From contig NZ_PGDQ01000016.1 in the NCBI RefSeq assembly GCF_003073135.1, positions 1 through 64,000 on the forward strand: a DNA stretch of 64,000 nucleotides, read 5' to 3'. The position numbers were made by a program, and so were the translations under genes. Under the pieces are notes generated by a model. It saw only the letters and a program-made list of their open reading frames with translations. It did not search any database and was not told where the DNA came from. Below are positions 18,666 to 29,878 of the stretch, in pieces. The stretch's first letter is position 1, and every line of letters begins with the position of its first letter. The stretch is from Euzebya rosea. Its GTDB lineage: Bacteria; Actinomycetota; Nitriliruptoria; Euzebyales; Euzebyaceae.

Positions 18666-19400
18666 TCATGGACCGGCGAACCCGAAGCGGCGCAGGATTT
18701 GCTGCGCCTCGGTGGTGGCGAGGAACTCGAGGAAGCCGCCGGCGGCGTCGGTCAGCAGCAGCACCTCGTAGGTGATCTCCGGCTGGACGTCCGCCGGCAG
18801 CTCGATGCCGTCGACCGTGTCGAGGGCGACGACATCGGAGGCGTAGGCGATGGCCGCGTCGGCATCGCCCTGCACGACCCGGCTGACGACCGCGCGGGTG
18901 TCGGGCTCCAGCGAGACCGGCTGCAGGTCCACCCCGGCCGCGTCGAGCGCCTCCAGCGCGTAGGCCCCGACGGGCACCTCCGCCGCACCGAGCACGACAT
19001 CGAGGTCGGTGAGGTCGGCCAGCGACGCGACGTCCTGCGGGTTGCCGGCGGGCACGACGATCACCAGCCGGTTGGTGGCCAGCACGATCGGCTCGCCCTG
19101 CCCGAGCCCGGCGTCGGTGACCGAGCGGACCGACTGCGGGTTGGCCGAGGCGAACAGGTCCGCCGGCGCACCGTCGACGATCTGGCCGGCCAGGATCTGG
19201 CTCCCACCGAGGTTCAGGACGATGTCGACGTCGGGATGGTCGTCCTCGTAGGCCCGCTCGAGCTCGTCGAAGGCCTCGGTCAGCGAGGCAGCCGCAGACA
19301 CCACCACCTGCTGGGGCCCCGCGACCGAGCAGGCGGCCCCGGCCGGACCCAGCACGAGCAGGCACACCGCGAGCAGTGCACCGACCCCGCGCGGAGTCAC
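18666..19400 (-). CDS. modA: Molybdate-binding periplasmic protein
   Basis: Extracytoplasmic molybdate-binding protein, 244 residues. The N-terminal signal ends ...AGAAC, a possible lipobox, so it is probably tethered. The family hallmark VVVSAAASLTEAFDELERAY begins the mature domain, followed by LNLGGSQILAGQIVDGAPADLFASA, the oxyanion-pocket region, and YASDVVALDTVDGIELP. The GTG start (19398-19400) overlaps the TGA of the flavoprotein gene lpdA in a GTGA, so modA translation should be coupled to it, an unusual partner for a molybdate operon. The longer open frame upstream lies inside lpdA and is not used. Confidence 0.88.
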   Translation of the reverse strand: MTPRGVGALLAVCLLVLGPAGAACSVAGPQQVVVSAAASLTEAFDELERAYEDDHPDVDIVLNLGGSQILAGQIVDGAPADLFASANPQSVRSVTDAGLGQGEPIVLATNRLVIVVPAGNPQDVASLADLTDLDVVLGAAEVPVGAYALEALDAAGVDLQPVSLEPDTRAVVSRVVQGDADAAIAYASDVVALDTVDGIELPADVQPEITYEVLLLTDAAGGFLEFLATTEAQQILRRFGFAGP

Positions 19401-20821
19401 TGCGCTGCGGCGGTGGCCAGGCCCATCAGCTGTCGGGCGGCCTCGGCGGTCGATCCGCCCATGGAGGGGTAGATGGTGAACGCCTGGGCGACCTGGCCGA
19501 CCGTCAGCCGGTTGTGGACGGCGACGCTCAGTGGGGTGATCAGGTCCGAGGCGTTGGGCGCCACGACGGTCGCCCCCAGCACGGTACCCGACCCCTTCCG
19601 CGCATGGATCTTGACGAACCCGACGGTCGCCTCCTCCATCTTGGCGCGCGGGTTGCCGGCGAAGTCCAGCCGGATGGTGTCGACCGGACCGTTCGCCGTG
19701 TCGTCGTCGGGCCCCTGCATCCCGACCGTGGCGACCTGGGGGCTGGTGAACACGCAGGCCGCGACGGCGTCCCACCGAAGCGGCGCGACGGCCATCCCGA
19801 GGGCGTGGTACATGGCGTTGCGGCCCTGCATCGCGGCAACGGAGGCCAGCATGATGCCGCCCGTGACGTCACCGGCCGCGTAGACGGTCCGCACGTTGGT
19901 CCGGCTGACCGCATCGACGGGGATCGCGCCGTCCGGACGGGTCAGCACGCCCGCGGCCTCCAGGCCCATGCGACGGGAGTTGGGGATCATGCCGACGCAG
20001 TACAGGGCGTGGCTGGCCTCGATCCACTCCTCCTGCCCGCCGTCCTTGTCGCCGACCTTGACCCGGACGCCGTCGTCGTTGACCTCCATGTCGTAGGCAC
20101 GACGACGCCGATGGATGGTCATCCCCCAGCGCTCGAACTCGCCCTCCAGCACCGCCGCGGCGTCGGGGTCCTCGCTGGGCAGGATCATGTCGCGGGAGCT
20201 GACGAGGTGGACGTCGACGCCGAACTTGGCGAACGCCTGGGCGTACTCGGCGCCGGTGACGCCCGAGCCGACGACGACCAGCCGCTCCGGGGGTTCCTGC
20301 AGCGCGAACAGCTCACGGGAGGTGAACACGCGCCTGCCGTCGGGGGTGGAGAAGGGCAGTCGACGCGGGTGGGAGCCGGTGGCCACCAGGATCGCGTCGG
20401 CGTGCAGCACCTCGACCGTGCCGTCCTCGGTCTCCACCTCGACGGTCTCCGGACCGGCCAGGCGACCGGTGCCGCGGAGGATCGTGGCCCCCGCGGCGGC
20501 GACCTTGGACTCGATGTCGGCGGACTGGTCCAGGCCGAGCAGGCGAACGCGGTCCATGACGGCCGCGATGTCGGCGTGGGTGCGCCCGCTCAGGTCGACA
20601 CCCCCCTCCAGGTGCACGCCCAAGCGGCTGGCGGTCTGCATCGACCCCATCGCGACCGACGAGACAATCATCGCCTTGGAGGGCACGCAGTCCCACAGGA
20701 CGCTGTTGCCGCCGAGGCCCTCACGGGACACCACGGTCACGTCGGCGCCCTGCTCCGCTGCGACGAGCGCCGCTTCGTAGCCGCCGGGGCCTCCGCCGAG
20801 AATCACGATCCGCTGTTGCAT
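19397..20821 (-). CDS. lpdA: NAD(P)H-quinone dehydrogenase of the LpdA family
   Basis: FAD-dependent pyridine-nucleotide oxidoreductase, 474 residues, with the dihydrolipoamide dehydrogenase fold: FAD site IVILGGGPGGYEAALVAAEQ at residues 5-24, NAD site VVVGSGVTGAEYA, FAD site VYAAGDVTGG, and a C-terminal dimerisation domain. The redox motif is incomplete: Ser40 and Cys45 (GGNSVLWDCVPSK) replace the usual CxxxxC pair. That is the pattern of mycobacterial LpdA (Rv3303c), which reduces quinones rather than lipoamide. The ATG is seven bases after TACGGT, suggesting a leaderless start; the longer upstream frame is rejected. Overlap with modA makes it first gene of a four-gene operon. Confidence 0.85.
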   Translation of the reverse strand: MQQRIVILGGGPGGYEAALVAAEQGADVTVVSREGLGGNSVLWDCVPSKAMIVSSVAMGSMQTASRLGVHLEGGVDLSGRTHADIAAVMDRVRLLGLDQSADIESKVAAAGATILRGTGRLAGPETVEVETEDGTVEVLHADAILVATGSHPRRLPFSTPDGRRVFTSRELFALQEPPERLVVVGSGVTGAEYAQAFAKFGVDVHLVSSRDMILPSEDPDAAAVLEGEFERWGMTIHRRRRAYDMEVNDDGVRVKVGDKDGGQEEWIEASHALYCVGMIPNSRRMGLEAAGVLTRPDGAIPVDAVSRTNVRTVYAAGDVTGGIMLASVAAMQGRNAMYHALGMAVAPLRWDAVAACVFTSPQVATVGMQGPDDDTANGPVDTIRLDFAGNPRAKMEEATVGFVKIHARKGSGTVLGATVVAPNASDLITPLSVAVHNRLTVGQVAQAFTIYPSMGGSTAEAARQLMGLATAAAQ

Positions 20822-20828
20822 CGTCTGG

Positions 20829-20834
20829 ACCGTA
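20829..20834 (-). promoter_or_regulatory. -10 box for leaderless lpdA-mod operon
   Basis: TACGGT on the minus strand lies seven bases before the lpdA ATG. It is just downstream of the 16-bp repeat tract. Confidence 0.5.
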
Positions 20835-20850
20835 TCCGACGACGGAAGAT

Positions 20851-20910
20851 CGTCCAGAAGCGGAGTCGTCCAGAAGCGGAGTCGTCCAGAAGCGGAGTCG
20901 GTCAGAAGCG
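20851..20910. repeat. Three exact plus one partial copy of a 16-bp tandem repeat at a gene end
   Basis: The unit CGTCCAGAAGCGGAGT occurs exactly at 20851-20866, 20867-20882 and 20883-20898. A degenerate copy CGGTCAGAAGCG at 20899-20910 contains the reverse-strand stop (TGA at 20902-20904) and last codons of the FMN-barrel gene. The repeats also sit just upstream of the lpdA promoter. Confidence 0.92.
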
Positions 20911-21312
20911 TCGCCCGGTCACCTGGTCGACCTCGATCGTGACGTAGGTGGGCTTGAGTCCGCCCGCGGAGGGCTCCAGCCGGCTCAGGCGGAGGAAGGC
21001 GGCTTCGTCCTCGTCGGTCACGACCGACGACCGTCCACGGACCAGCACGCTCCAGGCGTGGGCGACGTGGCCGTCGGCCACGACGACGGAGTCGATCTCG
21101 AAGGCCATCATCCGACCGTCGGCGGCGGCGTCGATCTTGCTGCCCGCGGCCGACCGGAACACGATGCGGCCCGCATCCAGCACGTAGTTGACGGGGAAGA
21201 TGACGGGCAGGCCGTCGTCGAAGGCCACCCGTCCGACGCCGTGCTGGTGCTCGCGCAGCAGGCGGACGCACTCGTCCATGGACAGCACTCTGGTCCGGTC
21301 AGCGGTGAACAT
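20902..21312 (-). CDS. FMN split-barrel (pyridoxamine 5'-phosphate oxidase-like) protein
   Basis: A 136-residue flavin/nucleotide-binding protein of the pyridoxamine phosphate oxidase-like group. The fold is seen in VGRVAFDDGLPVIFPVNYVLDAGRIVFRS and then KIDAAADGRMMAFEID, with HAWSVLVRGRSSVVTDEDE. Such small actinobacterial proteins bind FMN or F420 and act as reductases or nucleotide-binding stress proteins; several mycobacterial relatives belong to the DosR dormancy regulon. The ATG has GAGGAG six bases upstream. The gene lies beside a DevRS-like two-component system with DevR-type boxes 0.5 kb upstream, so shared regulation is plausible through co-transcription with the next gene. Its end carries the 16-bp repeat. 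Confidence 0.8.
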   Translation of the reverse strand: MFTADRTRVLSMDECVRLLREHQHGVGRVAFDDGLPVIFPVNYVLDAGRIVFRSAAGSKIDAAADGRMMAFEIDSVVVADGHVAHAWSVLVRGRSSVVTDEDEAAFLRLSRLEPSAGGLKPTYVTIEVDQVTGRRF

Positions 21313-21866: not shown

Positions 21867-21895
21867 GGGACGAAGGTCCCGCGGACCTTGGGACC
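21867..21895. promoter_or_regulatory. Candidate DevR/DosR-type box pair
   Basis: GGGACGAAGGTCCC at 21867-21880 (on the other strand GGGACCTTCGTCCC), then a partial second copy GGACCTTGG within 21882-21895. It lies between divergent genes and upstream of the DevS/DevR-like genes. It matches the core GGGAC-N4-GTCCC of mycobacterial DosR sites and the boxes at 28823-28860. Confidence 0.6.
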
Positions 21896-21938: not shown

Positions 21939-22403
21939 ATGGCGCGCCTCGTCCACTTCTGCTTCCACACCCCGAGCGACCCCGAGCAGGTCCTCGAGGC
22001 CCTCGTCGGCAAGCCCGAGGGGTGGCTGGGCGGCCAACGCGTCGACGACGCCGTGGTGCTCGTGACGCTCCGGCCGGCGGGGCTGCTGCCGGATCCGTCG
22101 ACGCCCGTGGCCGTGGAGGTCACCGTGGGCCCGGTGACCACCGACGCATCCGGACTCGTGCGCCGGCTGTCCTATCGGGTGGAGGGCCTGGTCCCCCTCG
22201 TCCGCTGCGACCTCGCGGTCGGCCCGGCCCCCGGGAACGGTGTCCGCGTCCGCCTGCAGGGCGAGTACCGTCCGACCCTCGCCTCGGCCGGAACGCTGAA
22301 CGGGCGCGAACCCCACGACGAGCACGCTGCGGCGGAGGCGATCGCCCAGCCGCTCGTTCTGTCCATCATCGAGCACGCCGTGGGCGGTAGGTTGCCCGTG
22401 TGA
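21939..22403 (+). CDS. Unknown protein upstream of the DevS-like kinase
   Basis: A 154-residue protein of unknown function, first gene of a three-gene operon with a sensor kinase and response regulator. No signal or membrane segment. Elements include KPEGWLGG near the N-terminus, a beta-rich middle (VAVEVTVGPVTTDASGLVRRL), GEYRPTL and a C-terminal helix AAEAIAQPLVLSIIEHAV. The layout recalls the divergent 21355 product. The start at 21939 is the first ATG giving a compact domain; an in-frame start further upstream is possible. Its TGA overlaps the kinase GTG (GTGA). A DevR-like box pair lies 44-72 bases upstream, so the operon is probably autoregulated. Confidence 0.55.
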   Translation: MARLVHFCFHTPSDPEQVLEALVGKPEGWLGGQRVDDAVVLVTLRPAGLLPDPSTPVAVEVTVGPVTTDASGLVRRLSYRVEGLVPLVRCDLAVGPAPGNGVRVRLQGEYRPTLASAGTLNGREPHDEHAAAEAIAQPLVLSIIEHAVGGRLPV

Positions 22404-23590
22404 ACGAGCCAACGACCACCACGAGGACCGAGCCACGAAGCGCGTCGAGGGCCGACCTAGAGACGCTGCTGGCGCAGATCGCCGAGGAGCTGTCGGGGCA
22501 GATCGACCTCGACCAGCTGCTGATGCGGATCGTCTCCGCCGCCCGGCACGTCACCGGCGCCCCCTACGCCGCGCTCGGCGTCCTGGCTCCCTCTGGCGAG
22601 TCGCTGGTGCGCTTCATCCACGAGGGAATGGACGCCGAGACGGTCAGGCGGATCGGTCCGCACCCCACGGGGGGTGGGCTGCTCGGGGAGCTGATCCGAC
22701 ACCCCGAGCCGCTGGTCGTCGACCAGCTCGACGCCCACCCCGCCTACCGGGGCTTCCCGCCGAACCATCCTCCGATGACGAACTTCCTCGGTGTCCCGGT
22801 CCGCGCGGGCGGACGGATCTTCGGCAACCTCTACCTGACCGACCGGCCGGGCGGCTTCGCCGAGGAGGACCTGCGCGCGGTGGCCATCCTTGCGGCGCAG
22901 GCGGGTGCGGCCATCCACGCCTCGGAGCTGGCCGACCGCTTGCGGGACGCCGCCGTCCAGGACGAACGCGAACGCATCAGCCGTGACCTCCACGACGGGG
23001 TCATCCAGTCGCTGTTCAGCGTCGGGATGGGGCTGGAAGGCGCCAAGGCCCTGGTCGATCGCGACTCCGAGCGGCTGCAGACCAGGATCGACATCGCGGT
23101 CGACCAGCTCGACGACACCATCCGCGAGATCCGCAACACCATCTTCACGCTGCGGCCGGGCGCCGCCGACCTCGGGCTGCAGCGCGGGTTGGTCGACCTC
23201 GCCCGGGAGTACGAGGTCAACGAGATCCTGCGGCCGGTGCTCAACGTCTCGCAGTCCCTCGACGTCCACGTCGAGGAGGAGCTGGTGCCCGACGTCCTGC
23301 ACATCGTGCGCGAGGCCCTGTCGAACGTGGCGAAGCACGCCACCGCGACACAGGTCATGCTGGACGCAGAGATCATCGCCGGCGAGCTGGTGATCAGCGT
23401 TCGTGACACCGGCGGTGGCTTCGACGCCGACACCGTCGTCCGCGGGAACGGCCTGGAGAACATGGCCGAACGCGCCGTGCTGCTCGGCGCCCACCTCGGT
23501 GTCACCTCCACGATCGGTGAGGGCACCACGGTCACCCTGACGGTGCCGCTGTACCCGCCCACCCCCGAGCCGGAGGACACCCAGGGATGA
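22400..23590 (+). CDS. DevS/DosS-like sensor histidine kinase with one GAF domain
   Basis: Soluble 396-residue sensor kinase. Residues 20-175 are a GAF domain close to those of mycobacterial DosS/DosT, with the segment FPPNHPPMTNFLGVPVRAGG and FGNLYLTDRPGG. His123 of HPPM lies in the region that supplies the haem ligand in DosS/DosT GAF-A, so haem binding is plausible but unproven. Mycobacterial homologues carry two GAF domains; here there is one. A HisKA_3 dimerisation domain follows with the phosphorylated His198 (ERISRDLHDGVIQSLFS) and a HATPase domain (VREALSNVAKHA; DTGGGF; GNGLENMAERA). The start overlaps the upstream stop (GTGA) and the stop overlaps the regulator (ATGA). A TAGGTT lies six bases before the GTG, perhaps an extra internal promoter. 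Confidence 0.87.
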   Translation: MNEPTTTTRTEPRSASRADLETLLAQIAEELSGQIDLDQLLMRIVSAARHVTGAPYAALGVLAPSGESLVRFIHEGMDAETVRRIGPHPTGGGLLGELIRHPEPLVVDQLDAHPAYRGFPPNHPPMTNFLGVPVRAGGRIFGNLYLTDRPGGFAEEDLRAVAILAAQAGAAIHASELADRLRDAAVQDERERISRDLHDGVIQSLFSVGMGLEGAKALVDRDSERLQTRIDIAVDQLDDTIREIRNTIFTLRPGAADLGLQRGLVDLAREYEVNEILRPVLNVSQSLDVHVEEELVPDVLHIVREALSNVAKHATATQVMLDAEIIAGELVISVRDTGGGFDADTVVRGNGLENMAERAVLLGAHLGVTSTIGEGTTVTLTVPLYPPTPEPEDTQG

Positions 23591-24243
23591 CCGAGGAGGA
23601 GGAAGCGCCGACCCGCGTGATGTTGGTCGACGACCACGAGGTGGTCCGGCAGGGACTCAAGGCGCTGGTCGAGTCGACGGGTGAGATGGAGGTCGTGGCC
23701 CAGGCCGGCACCGTCGCCGAGGCGGTGCTCCGGGCTCGGTCCTACCACCCGGACGTCATCGTGATGGACGTGCGCCTGCCCGACGGCAGCGGCGTCGAGG
23801 CCTGTCGTGACATCCGTGCCGAGGACCCGTCGGCCCGGGTGCTGATGCTGACGTCGTTCTCCGACGACAAGGCGCTGTTCGATTCGATCATGGCGGGCGC
23901 GGCGGGCTACGTGCTGAAGCAGATCAGGGGTCACGACCTGCTCGACGGGATCCGTCGGGTTGCCGCGGGCGAGTCCCTGCTCGACCCTGCGGTGACTGCG
24001 CAGGTCCTGGAACGCATCCGGAACCCGCGGTCGGGCGACCCGCGCCTCGCCCGCCTGACCCCCACCGAACGACGAATCCTCGACCAGATCGCGGTTGGGT
24101 CGACCAACCGGCAGATCGGTGACGAGCTCGGACTGGCGGAGAAGACGATCAAGAACTACGTCTCGACGATCCTCTCCAAGCTGCAGGTGGTCCGTCGGGC
24201 CGAGGCTGCCGCATACCTCGTCGCACATCGCGACGAGAGCTGA
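23587..24243 (+). CDS. DevR/DosR-like NarL-family response regulator
   Basis: A 218-residue response regulator, partner of the preceding kinase. The receiver domain has the acidic pair in MLVDDHE, phospho-acceptor Asp61 in VIVMDVRLPDGSG, and the conserved Lys in VLKQIRG. The C-terminal LuxR-type helix-turn-helix reads RLTPTERRILDQIAVGSTN followed by a recognition helix AEKTIKNYVSTILSKL. In mycobacterial DevR the corresponding KTVKNYVS helix contacts GGGAC half-sites through its Lys and Asn residues, which are kept here. This supports the GGGAC-N4-GTCCC palindromes at 21867 and 28823-28860 as targets. The start overlaps the kinase stop. Confidence 0.88.
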   Translation: MTEEEEAPTRVMLVDDHEVVRQGLKALVESTGEMEVVAQAGTVAEAVLRARSYHPDVIVMDVRLPDGSGVEACRDIRAEDPSARVLMLTSFSDDKALFDSIMAGAAGYVLKQIRGHDLLDGIRRVAAGESLLDPAVTAQVLERIRNPRSGDPRLARLTPTERRILDQIAVGSTNRQIGDELGLAEKTIKNYVSTILSKLQVVRRAEAAAYLVAHRDES

Positions 24244-24262: not shown

Positions 24263-25894
24263 TCAGTCCCCCACGGTGGTGAACGTGGACTCGAGGTCGT
24301 TGCCGACCGCCTGCCAGTCACCCAGCTCCAGGAAGTCACCCCAGATGAAGCACGGGTCGCACCCGTCCAGCACGTAGTCGTTGTCGGCGAACCGGTTGTT
24401 GCCCTCCTCGTAGAGGAAGGTCTGGTCGGTGGTGACCGACAGCCCTACGAACCCGTCGGTGAGGGTGATGTGGTTGCCGGTCACCTGCAGGTCCTCCACG
24501 AGCCGGGGGATGTCGATCTCGTCCCCGTGGTAGGACTGCACCCCGACGACCTCGTTGGTGTTGCCCGACAGCGTGTTGTTGCGGACCGTCACCCCGGGTG
24601 AGTTGGCGACGAAGATGCCGGCGGCCAGCGCACCCCCCTCGGCCCCGTTGTCGGTGATGACGTTGTCCTCCACGAGCGCGCCGGAGCTGAGCTCGTAGAA
24701 CACGCCGTTGATGGCGTTGCCGCTGATCTCGTTGCCGACGATCGTGGCGTCGGTGTTCATGGTGTCGAACCAGATGCCCGGGCCGGTGTTGTCCAGCACG
24801 GCGTTGTTCCGGAAGACCAGTCCGTGGGTGTCGATGAACTTGGTGGCCCCGGCTTCCCAGGTCCAGTCGAAGCCGAGCACGCCGTTGCCCTCGATGTGGC
24901 AGCCCGTCACGAGCATCGGCCGGTCACCCTCTTCCTGATGCCAGCCGATCACCCCCATCTGGCCGTTCCCCTCCGCCCAGCAGCCGTGCACCTCCGTGCC
25001 GGAACCGAGGCGCACACCGGCCCCGTGGTTGTCGACGGTGCGGACGGCAACCAGCGTCCAGTCATGGGTCTCGGTCGCGCTGATCGCCCCCTCCTGGGCC
25101 CACACGGCGTAGTGGCGCAGCTCGACCCCTCGGACCGTGACGTCCCTGGTGCCCCTGCCGGTGACACCGACCTGGACCACGGCGAGCTCGACGAGGGCAT
25201 CGGTGGGGTCGGTGCCGATCACCAGCTGGTCATTGTCGTAGTCCAGCCAGTACGTGCCCGGTCCGACGTCGTCCCTGGACAGGACGTGCCGCTGCCGCGC
25301 ACCGTCCACGAAGAGGTCGTGGGGGTTGGCCTCGTTGTCCCAGCCCTCGAGCATGACGCCGTGGGGGGCAGGGTCCTCGGTCCGTCCCGAGGCAACCCAG
25401 ACGTCGCCGTCGGCGACGAAGCCCTCGACCACGACCGAGCCGTCCAGGACCGCTCCGGGTTCGCCGACGAGGGTGTCGCCGTCCCGGAGTGACACCGACT
25501 GGGCCCGGTGCACGCCCGAGGCAAGGAGGAAGGTCGACCCTGCAGGGGACGCGTCCACCACGTCCTGCAGGGGTGCACCCACCTCGAGGCGGACGGCGTC
25601 GGCCAGGTCGGGTTCGGGGGGCAGCACCGCCCCGGGTCGCACGTGTCCCTCGAGTCCCGCGGGGACGGTCGCGACCTCCGTCGGCTCCGCGCCCTCCGTG
25701 GAGGCCTCCTCGGCGGGGTCCGCGCCGTCTGCCGGCACGTCCGGCTCGGCGGCCTCGCTGGCGTCGCCGTCGGCATCGGCGTTGGCCCCCGGATCGGCCT
25801 CCGCGGTCGAGGCGTCGTCGGCCGCCGGGTCGGTGGCCTCGCCCGTGCAGGCGACGAGGGCGAACAGGAGCAGGGAGGTCACGAGGAGTCGCAC
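24263..25894 (-). CDS. Lipoprotein with right-handed parallel beta-helix
   Basis: A 543-residue lipoprotein: signal with lipobox LVAC (Cys16), then about 80 residues of Asp/Ala/Glu-rich linker. The main part is a right-handed parallel beta-helix of roughly 20-25-residue rungs with Asn/Asp turns (NPHDLFVDGARQRHVLS; VTVRGVELRHYAVWA; IVGNEISGNAINGVFYE; VEDNVITDNGAEGGALAAG). Such folds usually bind or cleave polysaccharides, but no catalytic signature was recognised. It is the last of three leftward genes (multicopper oxidase, propeller, beta-helix) and converges on the DevR-like gene. The GTG start has no strong ribosome-binding sequence. A surface carbohydrate role is inference. Confidence 0.75.
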   Translation of the reverse strand: MRLLVTSLLLFALVACTGEATDPAADDASTAEADPGANADADGDASEAAEPDVPADGADPAEEASTEGAEPTEVATVPAGLEGHVRPGAVLPPEPDLADAVRLEVGAPLQDVVDASPAGSTFLLASGVHRAQSVSLRDGDTLVGEPGAVLDGSVVVEGFVADGDVWVASGRTEDPAPHGVMLEGWDNEANPHDLFVDGARQRHVLSRDDVGPGTYWLDYDNDQLVIGTDPTDALVELAVVQVGVTGRGTRDVTVRGVELRHYAVWAQEGAISATETHDWTLVAVRTVDNHGAGVRLGSGTEVHGCWAEGNGQMGVIGWHQEEGDRPMLVTGCHIEGNGVLGFDWTWEAGATKFIDTHGLVFRNNAVLDNTGPGIWFDTMNTDATIVGNEISGNAINGVFYELSSGALVEDNVITDNGAEGGALAAGIFVANSPGVTVRNNTLSGNTNEVVGVQSYHGDEIDIPRLVEDLQVTGNHITLTDGFVGLSVTTDQTFLYEEGNNRFADNDYVLDGCDPCFIWGDFLELGDWQAVGNDLESTFTTVGD

Positions 25895-25934: not shown

Positions 25935-27158
25935 TCAGGCGGTCCGGACGAGGGTGCAGCGCGGCAGGGTCGCCCGGAACTCCTCGGTCGTGTCGTAGGG
26001 CAGCTCCGCGACCGGCAGCACGGTGGCATGTGTGCGCCGGGTGGCGGTGGGGATCCGGTCCAGCCACGGGATGCGGTTGTCACCGAAGCCGACGGTCATC
26101 GTCCGGTCGACGGCATGCAGTCGCACGACCACCCGCGGGCATCCATCCAGCGGCTGCTCGGCGTGCATGCTGGTCAGCTCGTCGGGGATGTCGAGGTCGG
26201 CGACCATCGCCGGCTCCTCGAAGAGCTCCCTGGTGATGTCGTAGACGTGCACCATGCCCGTCGGGCAGTCCAGGCCGTCCACGCGAGGACGCACGACGAA
26301 GAGCTCACGGGTCCCGAGCATCGGGTCGTCGATGGTCAGCGACTCGATGCGCCAGTAGTTGCGGACGAGGGGGTCGGCGATCTGGCCGAGCTTGGTGGGG
26401 ACGGTCCGGTCGGCCATGTCGATGGCGACGGCGTGCGTGGCTGCCGTCGCGTACAGGACGGTCCCGTCCGCGGAGAAGGCCATGTCGTCGGCAGCGACGC
26501 CGTTGCCCGTCGGCGTGCCGGCGATCAGTCGTGGCGTGTCGGGATCCGCGACGTCCACGACGTCGGCCCAGCCGCTGCGGTCGTGCAGCTCGGTGTCGGC
26601 GACCACGAGTGTCCGCCCGTCGGGGCTGGACGCCATGGACCGGACGACGTCGTCGCGCGACACCGTGGACCGCACGACGGCGTCCGTGGCGTCGGTCACG
26701 TCGAGCAGGGCCACAGCGGGCATGGCGGTCGGGCACGGCGACGTGCTGCCGCCCAGCGCAACCGCGACGACCGCCGGCCCGTGTGCACGCTGCACCGGGA
26801 CGACGCTGCGCGGATCGACGTGGCCCGCCGCAGCGGCAGCCGGCGTGCCGGTGGTCGCGGCGGGGACGAGCTCCGCACAGGTGACCGAGTCGGTCACGGT
26901 CCCGTCGGCCGGATCGACGATCGCGACCCCTTCGGCGACCGGACGGACGACGAAGGGGGCTTCGCCACGGTCCTCGGGGTACAGCAGGACCGCGCCCGTC
27001 CCGGCCCCGGCTGCCCCGTCGACCACGAGCACGGTCTCGGGAACGATCGCCGCGGCGACGCGAGGAGCAGGGGGTGGACCGACGGAGGTGGCCATCGCGG
27101 CCACCGTGGCCACACCGGCCACCGCGGCCGCCAGGACCGCGGCAACTGGTGTGGGCAT
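25935..27158 (-). CDS. Exported beta-propeller protein next to the multicopper oxidase
   Basis: A 407-residue protein with an N-terminal hydrophobic signal or anchor (VAAVLAAAVAGVATVAAM) and a propeller of repeated blades (AVALLDVTDATDAVVRSTV; ADVVDVADPDTPRLIAG; MAFSADGTVLYATAA; MVHVYDITRELFEEP). Paired Cys residues suggest extracellular disulfides. It starts four bases after the stop of the multicopper oxidase gene and is almost certainly co-transcribed, so it may bind or deliver electrons to that enzyme; there is no direct evidence. No metal-binding motif is obvious. Confidence 0.7.
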   Translation of the reverse strand: MPTPVAAVLAAAVAGVATVAAMATSVGPPPAPRVAAAIVPETVLVVDGAAGAGTGAVLLYPEDRGEAPFVVRPVAEGVAIVDPADGTVTDSVTCAELVPAATTGTPAAAAAGHVDPRSVVPVQRAHGPAVVAVALGGSTSPCPTAMPAVALLDVTDATDAVVRSTVSRDDVVRSMASSPDGRTLVVADTELHDRSGWADVVDVADPDTPRLIAGTPTGNGVAADDMAFSADGTVLYATAATHAVAIDMADRTVPTKLGQIADPLVRNYWRIESLTIDDPMLGTRELFVVRPRVDGLDCPTGMVHVYDITRELFEEPAMVADLDIPDELTSMHAEQPLDGCPRVVVRLHAVDRTMTVGFGDNRIPWLDRIPTATRRTHATVLPVAELPYDTTEEFRATLPRCTLVRTA

Positions 27159-27162
27159 CGGG

Positions 27163-28734
27163 CTAGGCCTCGTCGGTGGCGGGCTCGTCGGCGTCGGGCT
27201 CGTCCTCGCCGGTGTCGGGGGTCACCGCCGCCTCCTGGCCCGGGAAGCTCGGGACCTGGTCGCGTCCCAGCTCGCGGGACAGGTCGGCGTTGACGTCGGG
27301 GTCGTCACTCGGCTCGACGATGAGCGCGGTGAACATGCCGAACACCGAACCGTCGTCCTTCTCGACGTGGGACAGGATGTGGCAGTGGTAGACCCACGTG
27401 CCGGGCACCTCGGCGAAGATCACGACGGTGTAGCGCTCACCCGGCGCGACGTTGACGGTGTCCATCACGATCGGCGTGGCCAGCGGGTACCCGTCCTTGG
27501 CGATCACCATCTGCGCGTTGTTGTGCAGGTGCATCGGATGGGCCGACAGGCCCTCGTTGTAGTAGTGCAGGATCATCTGCTCGCCCTCGGTGAGGACGTA
27601 GGGCGTGGTCGCCGGGAAGCTCTTGGCGTTGAGGGTCAGTCCGATCTCACCGGCGTCGTTGAGGATCATGACGTCCTCCGCGACGACGTTGTCGGCAACG
27701 GCCGGCAGCGGGACCTGCCCGACGGTGAAGGCACCGAACGCCCCGTTGATGACCTGGTGCACACCGTTGTCGTGCCCGTGGTACATGCCGACGGAGGTCT
27801 CCTGGGCGACGAACGTCTGCTCCCAGACGTCACCCGGCATGATCGGCTCCATGGAGATCATGCCGACCCCGTCGACCTCGAAGGGGTGCATGAAGATGCC
27901 GTGCGGGTGCAGGGTCGTGGCCTCGTCGTCCAGCTCGTTGACGACGCGGATGGTGACCTCGTCACCGACGTCGACCTGGATCCACGGTCCGGGGACCTGG
28001 CCGTTGTAGGCGACGGCCTCGACGAAGTCGCCGGGGGCGACCTCCCACTCCGTCTCGTCGAGGGTCAGCTCGAAGATCTTCTCGCCGTTGTCGCCGATCT
28101 CGGGTTCCATCGGCTGGTTGCCCATGGCGGCGGTCTCGGCCGGGAACTGGCTGACGGAGGACTCGTAGTTGGCGCGAAGCCACTCGGCGCGCTCCATGCC
28201 GGTCAGGGACTCGCCGTCGACTGCGCCCTCGCCCGCGGCGGCGGGACCGGCCGGGTCGATGACAAGCGTCCCGGTCATGCCGGACTCGGCGTGGCCGACG
28301 ATCGAGCAGTACAGCGGGTACTCGCCGGGCTCGAGCCCGGACAGGTCGATGTTGGCGGACTCACCGGCGTTCAGGTCGATGGTGCCGTACTGCTCCTCGT
28401 AGCCCTCCAGCTTCAGGTTGTGCGGGATGGCGCCGCTGTTGGTGACCTCGATCGTCCCCGACGGTCCGAGCACGATGTCCCCGGGCTCGAGCGCGAACTC
28501 GATGAGTCCGACGCTGGCAGTCCCACCCGAGCCGGCCTCGGCCGACACGGGAACGGTCTCGGCGGGCTCGTCCCCAGCGGGGGTGTCCCCGGCCGGCGCA
28601 GCGCCCTCCTCCAGCGCAACAGGGGCGGCGGTGCTGCCGCCACCGGAATCGATCGCGACGATGCTCGTGATCAGGGCGATCACCGAGACGATCGCGACCA
28701 ACGCGATGGCAGGCGAAAAGCGGGACTCGTTCAC
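27163..28734 (-). CDS. Multicopper oxidase with extra N-terminal plastocyanin-like domain
   Basis: Exported copper oxidase of 523 residues. After a membrane signal/anchor (residues 8-28) and acidic linker, residues 75-160 are a cupredoxin domain with a full type 1 site: His105, Cys143, His148, Met153. Two Cu-oxidase domains follow with the type 2/3 cluster: HPHG (276-279), YHGH (318-321), HPMHLH (399-404) and HCHILSH (450-456), with Cys451 flanking and Met467 as the likely axial type 1 ligand. It should reduce O2 to water with an unknown substrate. The GTG start has GGAGGA upstream and replaces a longer frame. Two DevR-like boxes 90-125 bases upstream suggest redox or oxygen control. It heads the group with the propeller and beta-helix genes. 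Confidence 0.88.
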   Translation of the reverse strand: MNESRFSPAIALVAIVSVIALITSIVAIDSGGGSTAAPVALEEGAAPAGDTPAGDEPAETVPVSAEAGSGGTASVGLIEFALEPGDIVLGPSGTIEVTNSGAIPHNLKLEGYEEQYGTIDLNAGESANIDLSGLEPGEYPLYCSIVGHAESGMTGTLVIDPAGPAAAGEGAVDGESLTGMERAEWLRANYESSVSQFPAETAAMGNQPMEPEIGDNGEKIFELTLDETEWEVAPGDFVEAVAYNGQVPGPWIQVDVGDEVTIRVVNELDDEATTLHPHGIFMHPFEVDGVGMISMEPIMPGDVWEQTFVAQETSVGMYHGHDNGVHQVINGAFGAFTVGQVPLPAVADNVVAEDVMILNDAGEIGLTLNAKSFPATTPYVLTEGEQMILHYYNEGLSAHPMHLHNNAQMVIAKDGYPLATPIVMDTVNVAPGERYTVVIFAEVPGTWVYHCHILSHVEKDDGSVFGMFTALIVEPSDDPDVNADLSRELGRDQVPSFPGQEAAVTPDTGEDEPDADEPATDEA

Positions 28735-28822
28735 AGGGCTTCCTCCGAGGGTGGTGGTGACTCGAGTGGAAGCGTCGTCGTGAGGCCGCGGTGCGCCACA
28801 GGCCACGGGTCCCCGCCCACGG

Positions 28823-28860
28823 GGGACCTTGGTCCCGGGCGGTCCCGGGACCTTCGTCGC
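28823..28860. promoter_or_regulatory. Tandem DevR/DosR-type boxes upstream of the multicopper oxidase
   Basis: GGGACCTTGGTCCC at 28823-28836 and GGGACCTTCGTCGC at 28847-28860, centres 24 bases apart. The second is nearly identical to the box at 21867 read on the other strand. A perfect GGTCCCGGGACC palindrome (28841-28852) joins them. They lie between the divergent multicopper oxidase and AurF-like genes. Confidence 0.6.
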
Positions 28861-28897: not shown

Positions 28898-28927
28898 TTT
28901 ATGTGCCATTGTTATGTGGCACATTAA
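28898..28927. promoter_or_regulatory. AT-rich operator-like dyad upstream of the AurF-like gene
   Basis: TTTATGTGCCA, eight bases, TGGCACATTAA: an 11-bp inverted repeat with one mismatch in a clearly AT-rich stretch. It ends 18 bases before the AurF-like ATG, as expected for a repressor site over the promoter. The cognate regulator is not in the window. Confidence 0.6.
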
Positions 28928-28945: not shown

Positions 28946-29878
28946 ATGACCGCCGTCGACACCGATCTCGACTACCGCACCAACGGCAAGCACCGCACCA
29001 GCGACCGCGAGACCACCGCCGAGCGGTTGCTGCGCTCGAGCGCCAAGCTGAGCTTCGACCCCACCGTCGACATCGACTGGGACCTGCCGCACGAGGACGG
29101 CAAGTGGTACATGCAGCCCGAGCGGCTGTCGTTGTACGGCACCGACCTGTGGCAGGAGATGACGCCCCAGCAACAGGTCGACCTGAGCCGCCACGAGGTC
29201 GCCAGCATCGCGGCGACCGGCATCTTCTTCGAGATGGTGCTGATGCGGATGTTGCTCAAGCACCTCGGCAAGCACGACGCCCAGTCCAAGCACTTCCAGT
29301 ACGGCCTGACCGAGGTCGCCGACGAGTGTCACCACTCGACGATGTTCGGCAGGATGATCGAGTGGCTCGGGGTCCCCAGCTACGGCCCGGGCCGGAAGGT
29401 CCGACGCCTGGCGGAGCTCATGCAGACGCCGGTCATCAACGAGGCCATCGCCTTCGGCGGGACCTACTACGTCGAGGCCGTGCTCGACGCGATCCAGCGC
29501 GAGGGTGCGACCGACGAGCGCGTGCACGACGTCTGCCGTCGGGTCTCCTACATCCACGTGGTCGAGGAGGCACGCCACATGCGCTACGCCGACGAGGAGC
29601 TCGCCCGCACGATGGACGGGATGGGCTTCCTGGACCGGCAGCGGACGCGCGTCCTGCTCCCGCTGGTGGCGGCGGTCTGCAACGAGATCCTGATCCACCC
29701 CCGGGTGTACGCCAACGTCGGGCTCGACGTCGACCGGGCGAAGGCCGAGGCGGCAGCCAACCCCTACTGGCAGGAGACCATCCGTTGGGCGGCCAGAAAG
29801 CCCGTGGGCATCTTCCGGGAACAGGGCCTGCTGGACGGCCCGGCCGTGCTCGCCTGGACGCGCATGGGCCTGGCCTGA
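28946..29878 (+). CDS. AurF-like di-iron oxygenase
   Basis: A 310-residue soluble enzyme of the AurF (p-aminobenzoate N-oxygenase-like) family with a ferritin-like helical bundle. All seven carboxylate/histidine ligands expected from AurF can be placed: Glu96, Glu127 and His130 (DECHH), Glu177 (YYVEAVL), His204, Glu208 and His211 (HVVEEARH). It should activate O2 at a di-iron centre; AurF oxidises an arylamine to a nitro group, but family substrates vary widely and the one here is unknown. The ATG has GGGAGG eight bases upstream. A strong dyad overlaps its promoter region. A BioD-like and a methyltransferase gene follow, with their own -10 box. Confidence 0.83.
   Translation: MTAVDTDLDYRTNGKHRTSDRETTAERLLRSSAKLSFDPTVDIDWDLPHEDGKWYMQPERLSLYGTDLWQEMTPQQQVDLSRHEVASIAATGIFFEMVLMRMLLKHLGKHDAQSKHFQYGLTEVADECHHSTMFGRMIEWLGVPSYGPGRKVRRLAELMQTPVINEAIAFGGTYYVEAVLDAIQREGATDERVHDVCRRVSYIHVVEEARHMRYADEELARTMDGMGFLDRQRTRVLLPLVAAVCNEILIHPRVYANVGLDVDRAKAEAAANPYWQETIRWAARKPVGIFREQGLLDGPAVLAWTRMGLA

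Follow-up and report, generated by a model that had tools for sequence, protein, structure and literature searches.

A Tandem Array of Predicted DosR/DevR-Type Operators Upstream of a Multicopper Oxidase Gene in Euzebya rosea and Its Relatives

Closest Described Systems

The DevR (DosR) protein of Mycobacterium tuberculosis binds closely packed sites cooperatively (PMC3029386), and the multicopper oxidase (MCO) gene of that organism, mmcO, is reported to be controlled by the copper regulator RicR, not by DosR (PMC4801387). For OsdR of Streptomyces, the consensus AGGGCCGATCGGCCCT has been published (PMC5069765), in a paper in which pyridoxamine-oxidase and universal-stress targets of S. coelicolor OsdKR are described, copper is unmentioned, and an MCO is not among the targets given in the parts consulted.

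The locus described here shares with the DosR/DevR-DosS/DosT system of M. tuberculosis the recognition helix, a heme GAF domain, the GGGAC-N4-GTCCC core and multi-box promoters, and it shares with OsdKR sites of the GGGCC-N4-GGCCC form and the two kinds of targets mentioned above. In contrast to the mycobacterial DosR regulon, the Euzebya-type kinase possesses one GAF domain and an MCO is a predicted target. The first-pass annotation of this DNA had placed such an oxidase outside the mycobacterial regulon, which agrees with the reported assignment of mmcO to RicR.

The Box Array and the Multicopper Oxidase

The window, i.e., the whole stretch of E. rosea DNA that was analysed (64,000 nucleotides), contains a divergent intergenic region with the MCO gene on the minus strand and an AurF-family gene on the plus strand. 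Two tandem sites had been claimed in this region by the first-pass annotation; both exist, with a start-to-start distance of 24 bp, and a third box, absent from that annotation, was found here.

28823-28836, minus strand: central DosR-type box, GGGACCTTGGTCCC; GGGACCAAGGTCCC in the MCO sense, 10/10; 88-102 bp 5' of the MCO start codon
28847-28860, minus strand: distal tandem box, GGGACCTTCGTCGC; GCGACGAAGGTCCC in the MCO sense, 9/10; 24 bp from the central box
28800-28813, minus strand: proximal third box, AGGCCACGGGTCCC; GGGACCCGTGGCCT in the MCO sense, 9/10, degenerate and weaker; 23 bp from the central box

The array thus lies 66-126 bp upstream of the MCO start, with spacings of 23 and 24 bp. 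All three boxes are kept in genome G003 at 24- and 23-bp spacing, and the central box is also kept in G003, G001, G034 and others. The central letters of the box motif differ from the mycobacterial centre. The 5.5-Mb genome holds only three copies of the perfect GGGACCTTNGTCCC, and the window accounts for two; a survey of 66 genomes of the class, Nitriliruptoria, returned 44 matches to this pattern vs one to the reversed pattern.

The MCO gene heads a minus-strand run of three genes.

27163-28734, minus strand: multicopper oxidase, 523 aa (Pfam, PDB search, invariant ligands, structure model, fold search)
25935-27158, minus strand: hypothetical protein, 407 aa, no Pfam match, 4 bp downstream of the MCO gene
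24263-25894, minus strand: NosD/beta-helix protein (Pfam), third gene of the run, kept in G003

Translation of the MCO starts at GTG 28734, which is preceded by GGAGGAAG. The 407-aa protein is likely encoded on the same transcript as the MCO, and it is also found 3' of the MCO gene in G003 (79%), G001 (30%) and G002 (28%). The MCO consists of an N-terminal hydrophobic helix, a blue-copper cupredoxin domain (C143-x4-H148-x4-M153) and a two-domain MCO core that carries the trinuclear-cluster and C-terminal type-1 motifs; the multicopper oxidase copper-ligand motifs HxHG, YHxH, HPMHLH and HCHxxxH are present. In an alignment of 17 MCOs, the N-terminal blue-copper ligands H105, C143, H148 and M153, the His motifs of the trinuclear cluster and the C-terminal type-1 site are all kept. 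The best sequence and fold matches are two-domain laccases/blue copper oxidases (2zwn, 3g5w), which share the two-domain core, the fold search serving as supporting evidence only because the structure model is moderate (pLDDT 69). Unlike these laccases, the window MCO possesses a fused N-terminal blue-copper domain, and its type-1 Cys is located in the second core domain, not in the first as in 2zwn, with YHGH where 2zwn has YHCH. A cupredoxin fused N-terminally to a two-domain core is likewise found in the Hyphomicrobium denitrificans copper nitrite reductase of three domains (6tfo, 2dv6); in contrast to that enzyme, the window MCO carries the trinuclear-cluster His motifs and lacks a type-1 Cys in core domain 1. 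A NirK identity was ruled out by this lack, seen as YHGH, and by a TIGR02376 score of 69.7 bits against a cut-off of 296.3 bits.

The Kinase-Regulator Operon

A box matching those at the MCO promoter had also been claimed at the kinase locus, and it was found upstream of the following operon.

21867-21880, minus strand: DosR-type box, GGGACCTTCGTCCC; kept in G003 (L087); weak partner at 21890, 23 bp off
21939-22403, plus strand: hypothetical protein, 154 aa, first operon gene (ORF), no Pfam match; kept in G003
22400-23590, plus strand: sensor kinase resembling DosS/DosT; a single heme-type GAF, then HisKA_3 and HATPase (domain matches)
23587-24243, plus strand: DosR/DevR-type NarL-family response regulator (domain and PDB matches)

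The distance of 4.6 kb originally assigned to the array holds when it is measured to where the response-regulator gene ends; from box to box, it is 7.0 kb. In the wider class, a box near the kinase start is rare (2/31), and outside Euzebya-like genomes a strong box is often missing there.

Among solved NarL-family regulators, the regulator is closest to DevR (3c3w, E 2.4e-56), followed by VraR (3.8e-42), and it is the only match in the genome at E <= 1e-55. The recognition helix LAEKT(V/I)KNYVS is present in 33/33 regulator orthologues, as in DevR. By these sequence comparisons, the regulator is identified as a true DosR/DevR relative. A second DosR-type regulator, 51% identical, is encoded in a Euzebya-like genome (G001:C3:216439-217056).

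The GAF domain of the kinase finds its best matches in the heme GAFs of DevS and DosT. When 31 true kinase orthologues were aligned to DevS, the proximal heme His (DevS 149) and the distal Tyr (171) were present in all of them, and the position of DevS Glu87 was Gly in 31/31, as in the DevS variant 2y8h. These residues fit an O2-accessible, DosT-like sensor, a reading based on the literature and on structures of DevS variants that the PDB search returned. The window kinase has one GAF domain, not the tandem GAFs of DosS/DosT; Euzebya-type kinases have HisKA directly beside the GAF domain, leaving one GAF, and in Nitriliruptorales-type kinases the spacing leaves room for a second. Near the operon, the protein encoded at 19397-21271 of the window exceeds the cut-off of the NCBIfam model PRK07845 (NAD(P)H-quinone dehydrogenase), has about 150 extra N-terminal residues, and also adjoins the kinase operon in G003.

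Predicted Activation of the Multicopper Oxidase

The boxes very probably constitute a tandem array of three operators through which the DosR/DevR-type regulator encoded 4.6 kb away activates the MCO as a core member of its regulon in the class. In the proposed mechanism, a change in oxygen, or in another heme ligand or the redox state, would most likely cause the heme-GAF kinase to phosphorylate the regulator. Dimers of the phosphorylated regulator would bind, in a cooperative manner, to palindromes spaced at 22-24 bp, i.e., two helical turns on the same face of the DNA, and the bound regulator would activate the promoter of the MCO gene in the way that DevR acts on promoters of its own. The MCO itself may work as an extracytoplasmic O2-reducing copper enzyme. 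The link between an oxygen/redox sensor and a copper oxidase that was put forward in the first-pass annotation is supported, since the computational tests were all favourable: a DosR-type regulator, a heme-GAF kinase, conserved boxes, adjacency of MCO and regulator genes, and mmcO under RicR.

Regulation in the opposite direction, in which the regulator represses the MCO and shuts an O2-consuming enzyme off in hypoxia, is improbable, though of the alternatives it deserves the most weight. An oxidase would be of little use without O2, but a multi-box array 66-126 bp before the start codon resembles the promoters that DevR activates (PMC3029386), and the co-located PNPOx gene, together with boxed Usp and PFOR genes, resembles induced DosR/OsdR targets. 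The same box is located upstream of a Usp gene in G007 and of a PFOR gene in G001 (L093), and apparently also upstream of, or close to, the PFOR genes of G008 and G012 (L075, L076). Usp and PFOR genes would be of the kind expected in a DosR/OsdR-type or anaerobic regulon.

With activation as the preferred direction, these comparisons suggest that the MCO may belong to the low-oxygen response in this actinobacterium and dozens of its relatives, unlike in M. tuberculosis. We tentatively propose that the cupredoxin-fused MCO could be among the core outputs of the DosR-type heme-sensing system, serving in low oxygen to scavenge O2 outside the cytoplasm or as an electron sink from cytochrome/cupredoxin to O2; if so, such an MCO would represent a branch that the dormancy regulon of mycobacteria is not known to have. 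The DosR-type dormancy/hypoxia regulon would be extended to non-pathogenic actinobacteria of deep-branching lineages, in which an O2-reducing copper enzyme would be a conserved target, whereas mycobacteria control their MCO by copper instead. Why an O2-consuming enzyme should be made as O2 falls is a question raised by this arrangement, and it can be tested in culturable non-pathogens.

The Divergent AurF-Family Gene

28946-29878, plus strand: AurF-family diiron oxygenase (Pfam), divergent from the MCO gene and sharing the intergenic region with the array

In the window, the boxes lie roughly midway between the two gene starts, and the array could control the AurF-family gene, or both genes, rather than mainly the MCO. 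This arrangement is quite unlikely, since in both G003 and G001 the AurF-family and MCO genes are separated by a dapA-like gene (identified by eye from its sequence) and the box stays beside the MCO gene, to which it therefore belongs. Moreover, the array is kept at MCO promoters without any AurF-family neighbour, and the AurF-family gene has a perfect palindrome of its own. On the synteny in relatives, where the box does not adjoin the AurF-family gene, this gene was rejected as the array target. Its own palindrome, ATGTGCCATTGTTATGTGGCACAT at 28901-28924 just upstream of the gene, is unique in the window and looks like a separate, perhaps TetR-type, operator.

Linkage of the Oxidase and the Regulator across Genomes

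Among the 31 genomes of the class with this MCO, the regulator gene is located within about 7 kb of the MCO gene in 24, in at least two gene orders, and a PNPOx-family gene often stands between the kinase-regulator genes and the MCO gene. In the Nitriliruptorales-type order, the histidine kinase gene diverges from the response-regulator gene, which is followed by the PNPOx and MCO genes; the gap between the response-regulator and PNPOx genes contains the GGGCC-N4-GGCCC form in 10/16 cases, the first of 1024 half-sites. A perfect box precedes a DoxX-like/PNPOx/MCO run in G002. Some regulator-positive genomes are without this MCO, and in G007, G006 and others the MCO is unlinked. A related-locus search of the genome contigs returned only four distant loci.

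Control by another regulator, such as a copper sensor, that binds these palindromes and shares their sequence by chance would accord with the frequent copper regulation of MCOs, as for mmcO in the RicR regulon (PMC4801387). It is very unlikely, as the motif, its gap and the tandem spacing are all DosR-type, the same box occurs ahead of the kinase-regulator operon and of Usp/PFOR genes, and boxes are present where the regulator is adjacent. In the first 21 genomes, perfect boxes were found in 12 of the 15 with a regulator orthologue (2 of the 15 being partial) vs none of the 6 without one. Furthermore, of 11 MCOs examined outside the class in a phylum sample, four adjoin a DosR-like regulator (G066, G094, G182, G209), and 10/10 boxes of the degenerate GGG(A/C)C form were found at 4/4 of these vs 0/7 of the non-adjacent MCOs (Fisher p 0.003), such linkage p-values being guides only because the genomes are related. 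The boxed Ilumatobacter MCOs were rejected as regulator-linked and were not counted as such, since the only regulator found near them (L022, 50%, 5 kb) is paired with a kinase-like protein that lacks the heme His.

Motif Statistics

For the promoter sample, as much as 250 bp of upstream sequence was taken from each of 30 MCO genes, of which 27 belong to the window's class and 3 to Ilumatobacter loci. GGGAC-N4-GTCCC at 9/10 positions or better was found in 20/30 of these promoters vs 1.84 expected, and at most 5 promoters contained such a site in any of 300 dinucleotide shuffles, a comparison that overstates independence because the sampled genomes are related. The site is missing from about one third of the promoters (10/30). 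Conservation of the boxes in related genomes, which had been proposed as a check on the first reading, extends far beyond the genus. When every one of the 1024 five-base half-sites was scanned blind, GGGAC ranked top (20 promoters), followed by its variants GGGCC (13) and GGGTC (11), with 7 for the best unrelated half-site, and when gaps of 0-12 were tried for GGGAC, gap 4 alone was enriched (20 vs at most 3 elsewhere). A second box is located 22-24 bp from the best site in 19 of the 28 anchored promoters vs 1.07 expected in shuffles; away from this spacing, second boxes are scarce when anchored on the best site. Three boxes occur in 8/28 anchored promoters vs 0.05 expected.

The box pattern at MCO promoters exceeds chance: a GC content of 72% and the chance-level frequency of the loose pattern GGGACCNNNGNCNC within the window would suit palindromes arising from the composition of GC-rich DNA, but the blind tests of half-site, gap and spacing refute this origin, whose probability is negligible, as does the 20/30 promoter count, set against a box in only 2/31 kinase-adjacent regions, which come largely from the same genomes and are mostly coding. 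Genome-wide, many of the perfect GGGAC-N4-GTCCC sites examined fall inside genes and resemble background. The 22-24-bp spacing provides a clean cis-regulatory signature for predicting regulons of this type.

Two further perfect boxes were observed. In G013, one lies upstream of a gene for a Blh-type beta-carotene 15,15'-dioxygenase (Pfam BCD; L086 near 1501). The third perfect GGGACCTTGGTCCC of the E. rosea genome (G000:C8:64057-64070; L002; L058 near 9058) is accompanied by a second half-box and is located between a 6-phosphogluconate dehydrogenase/G6PD-like run and a membrane protein gene; it is kept in G003 (L090).
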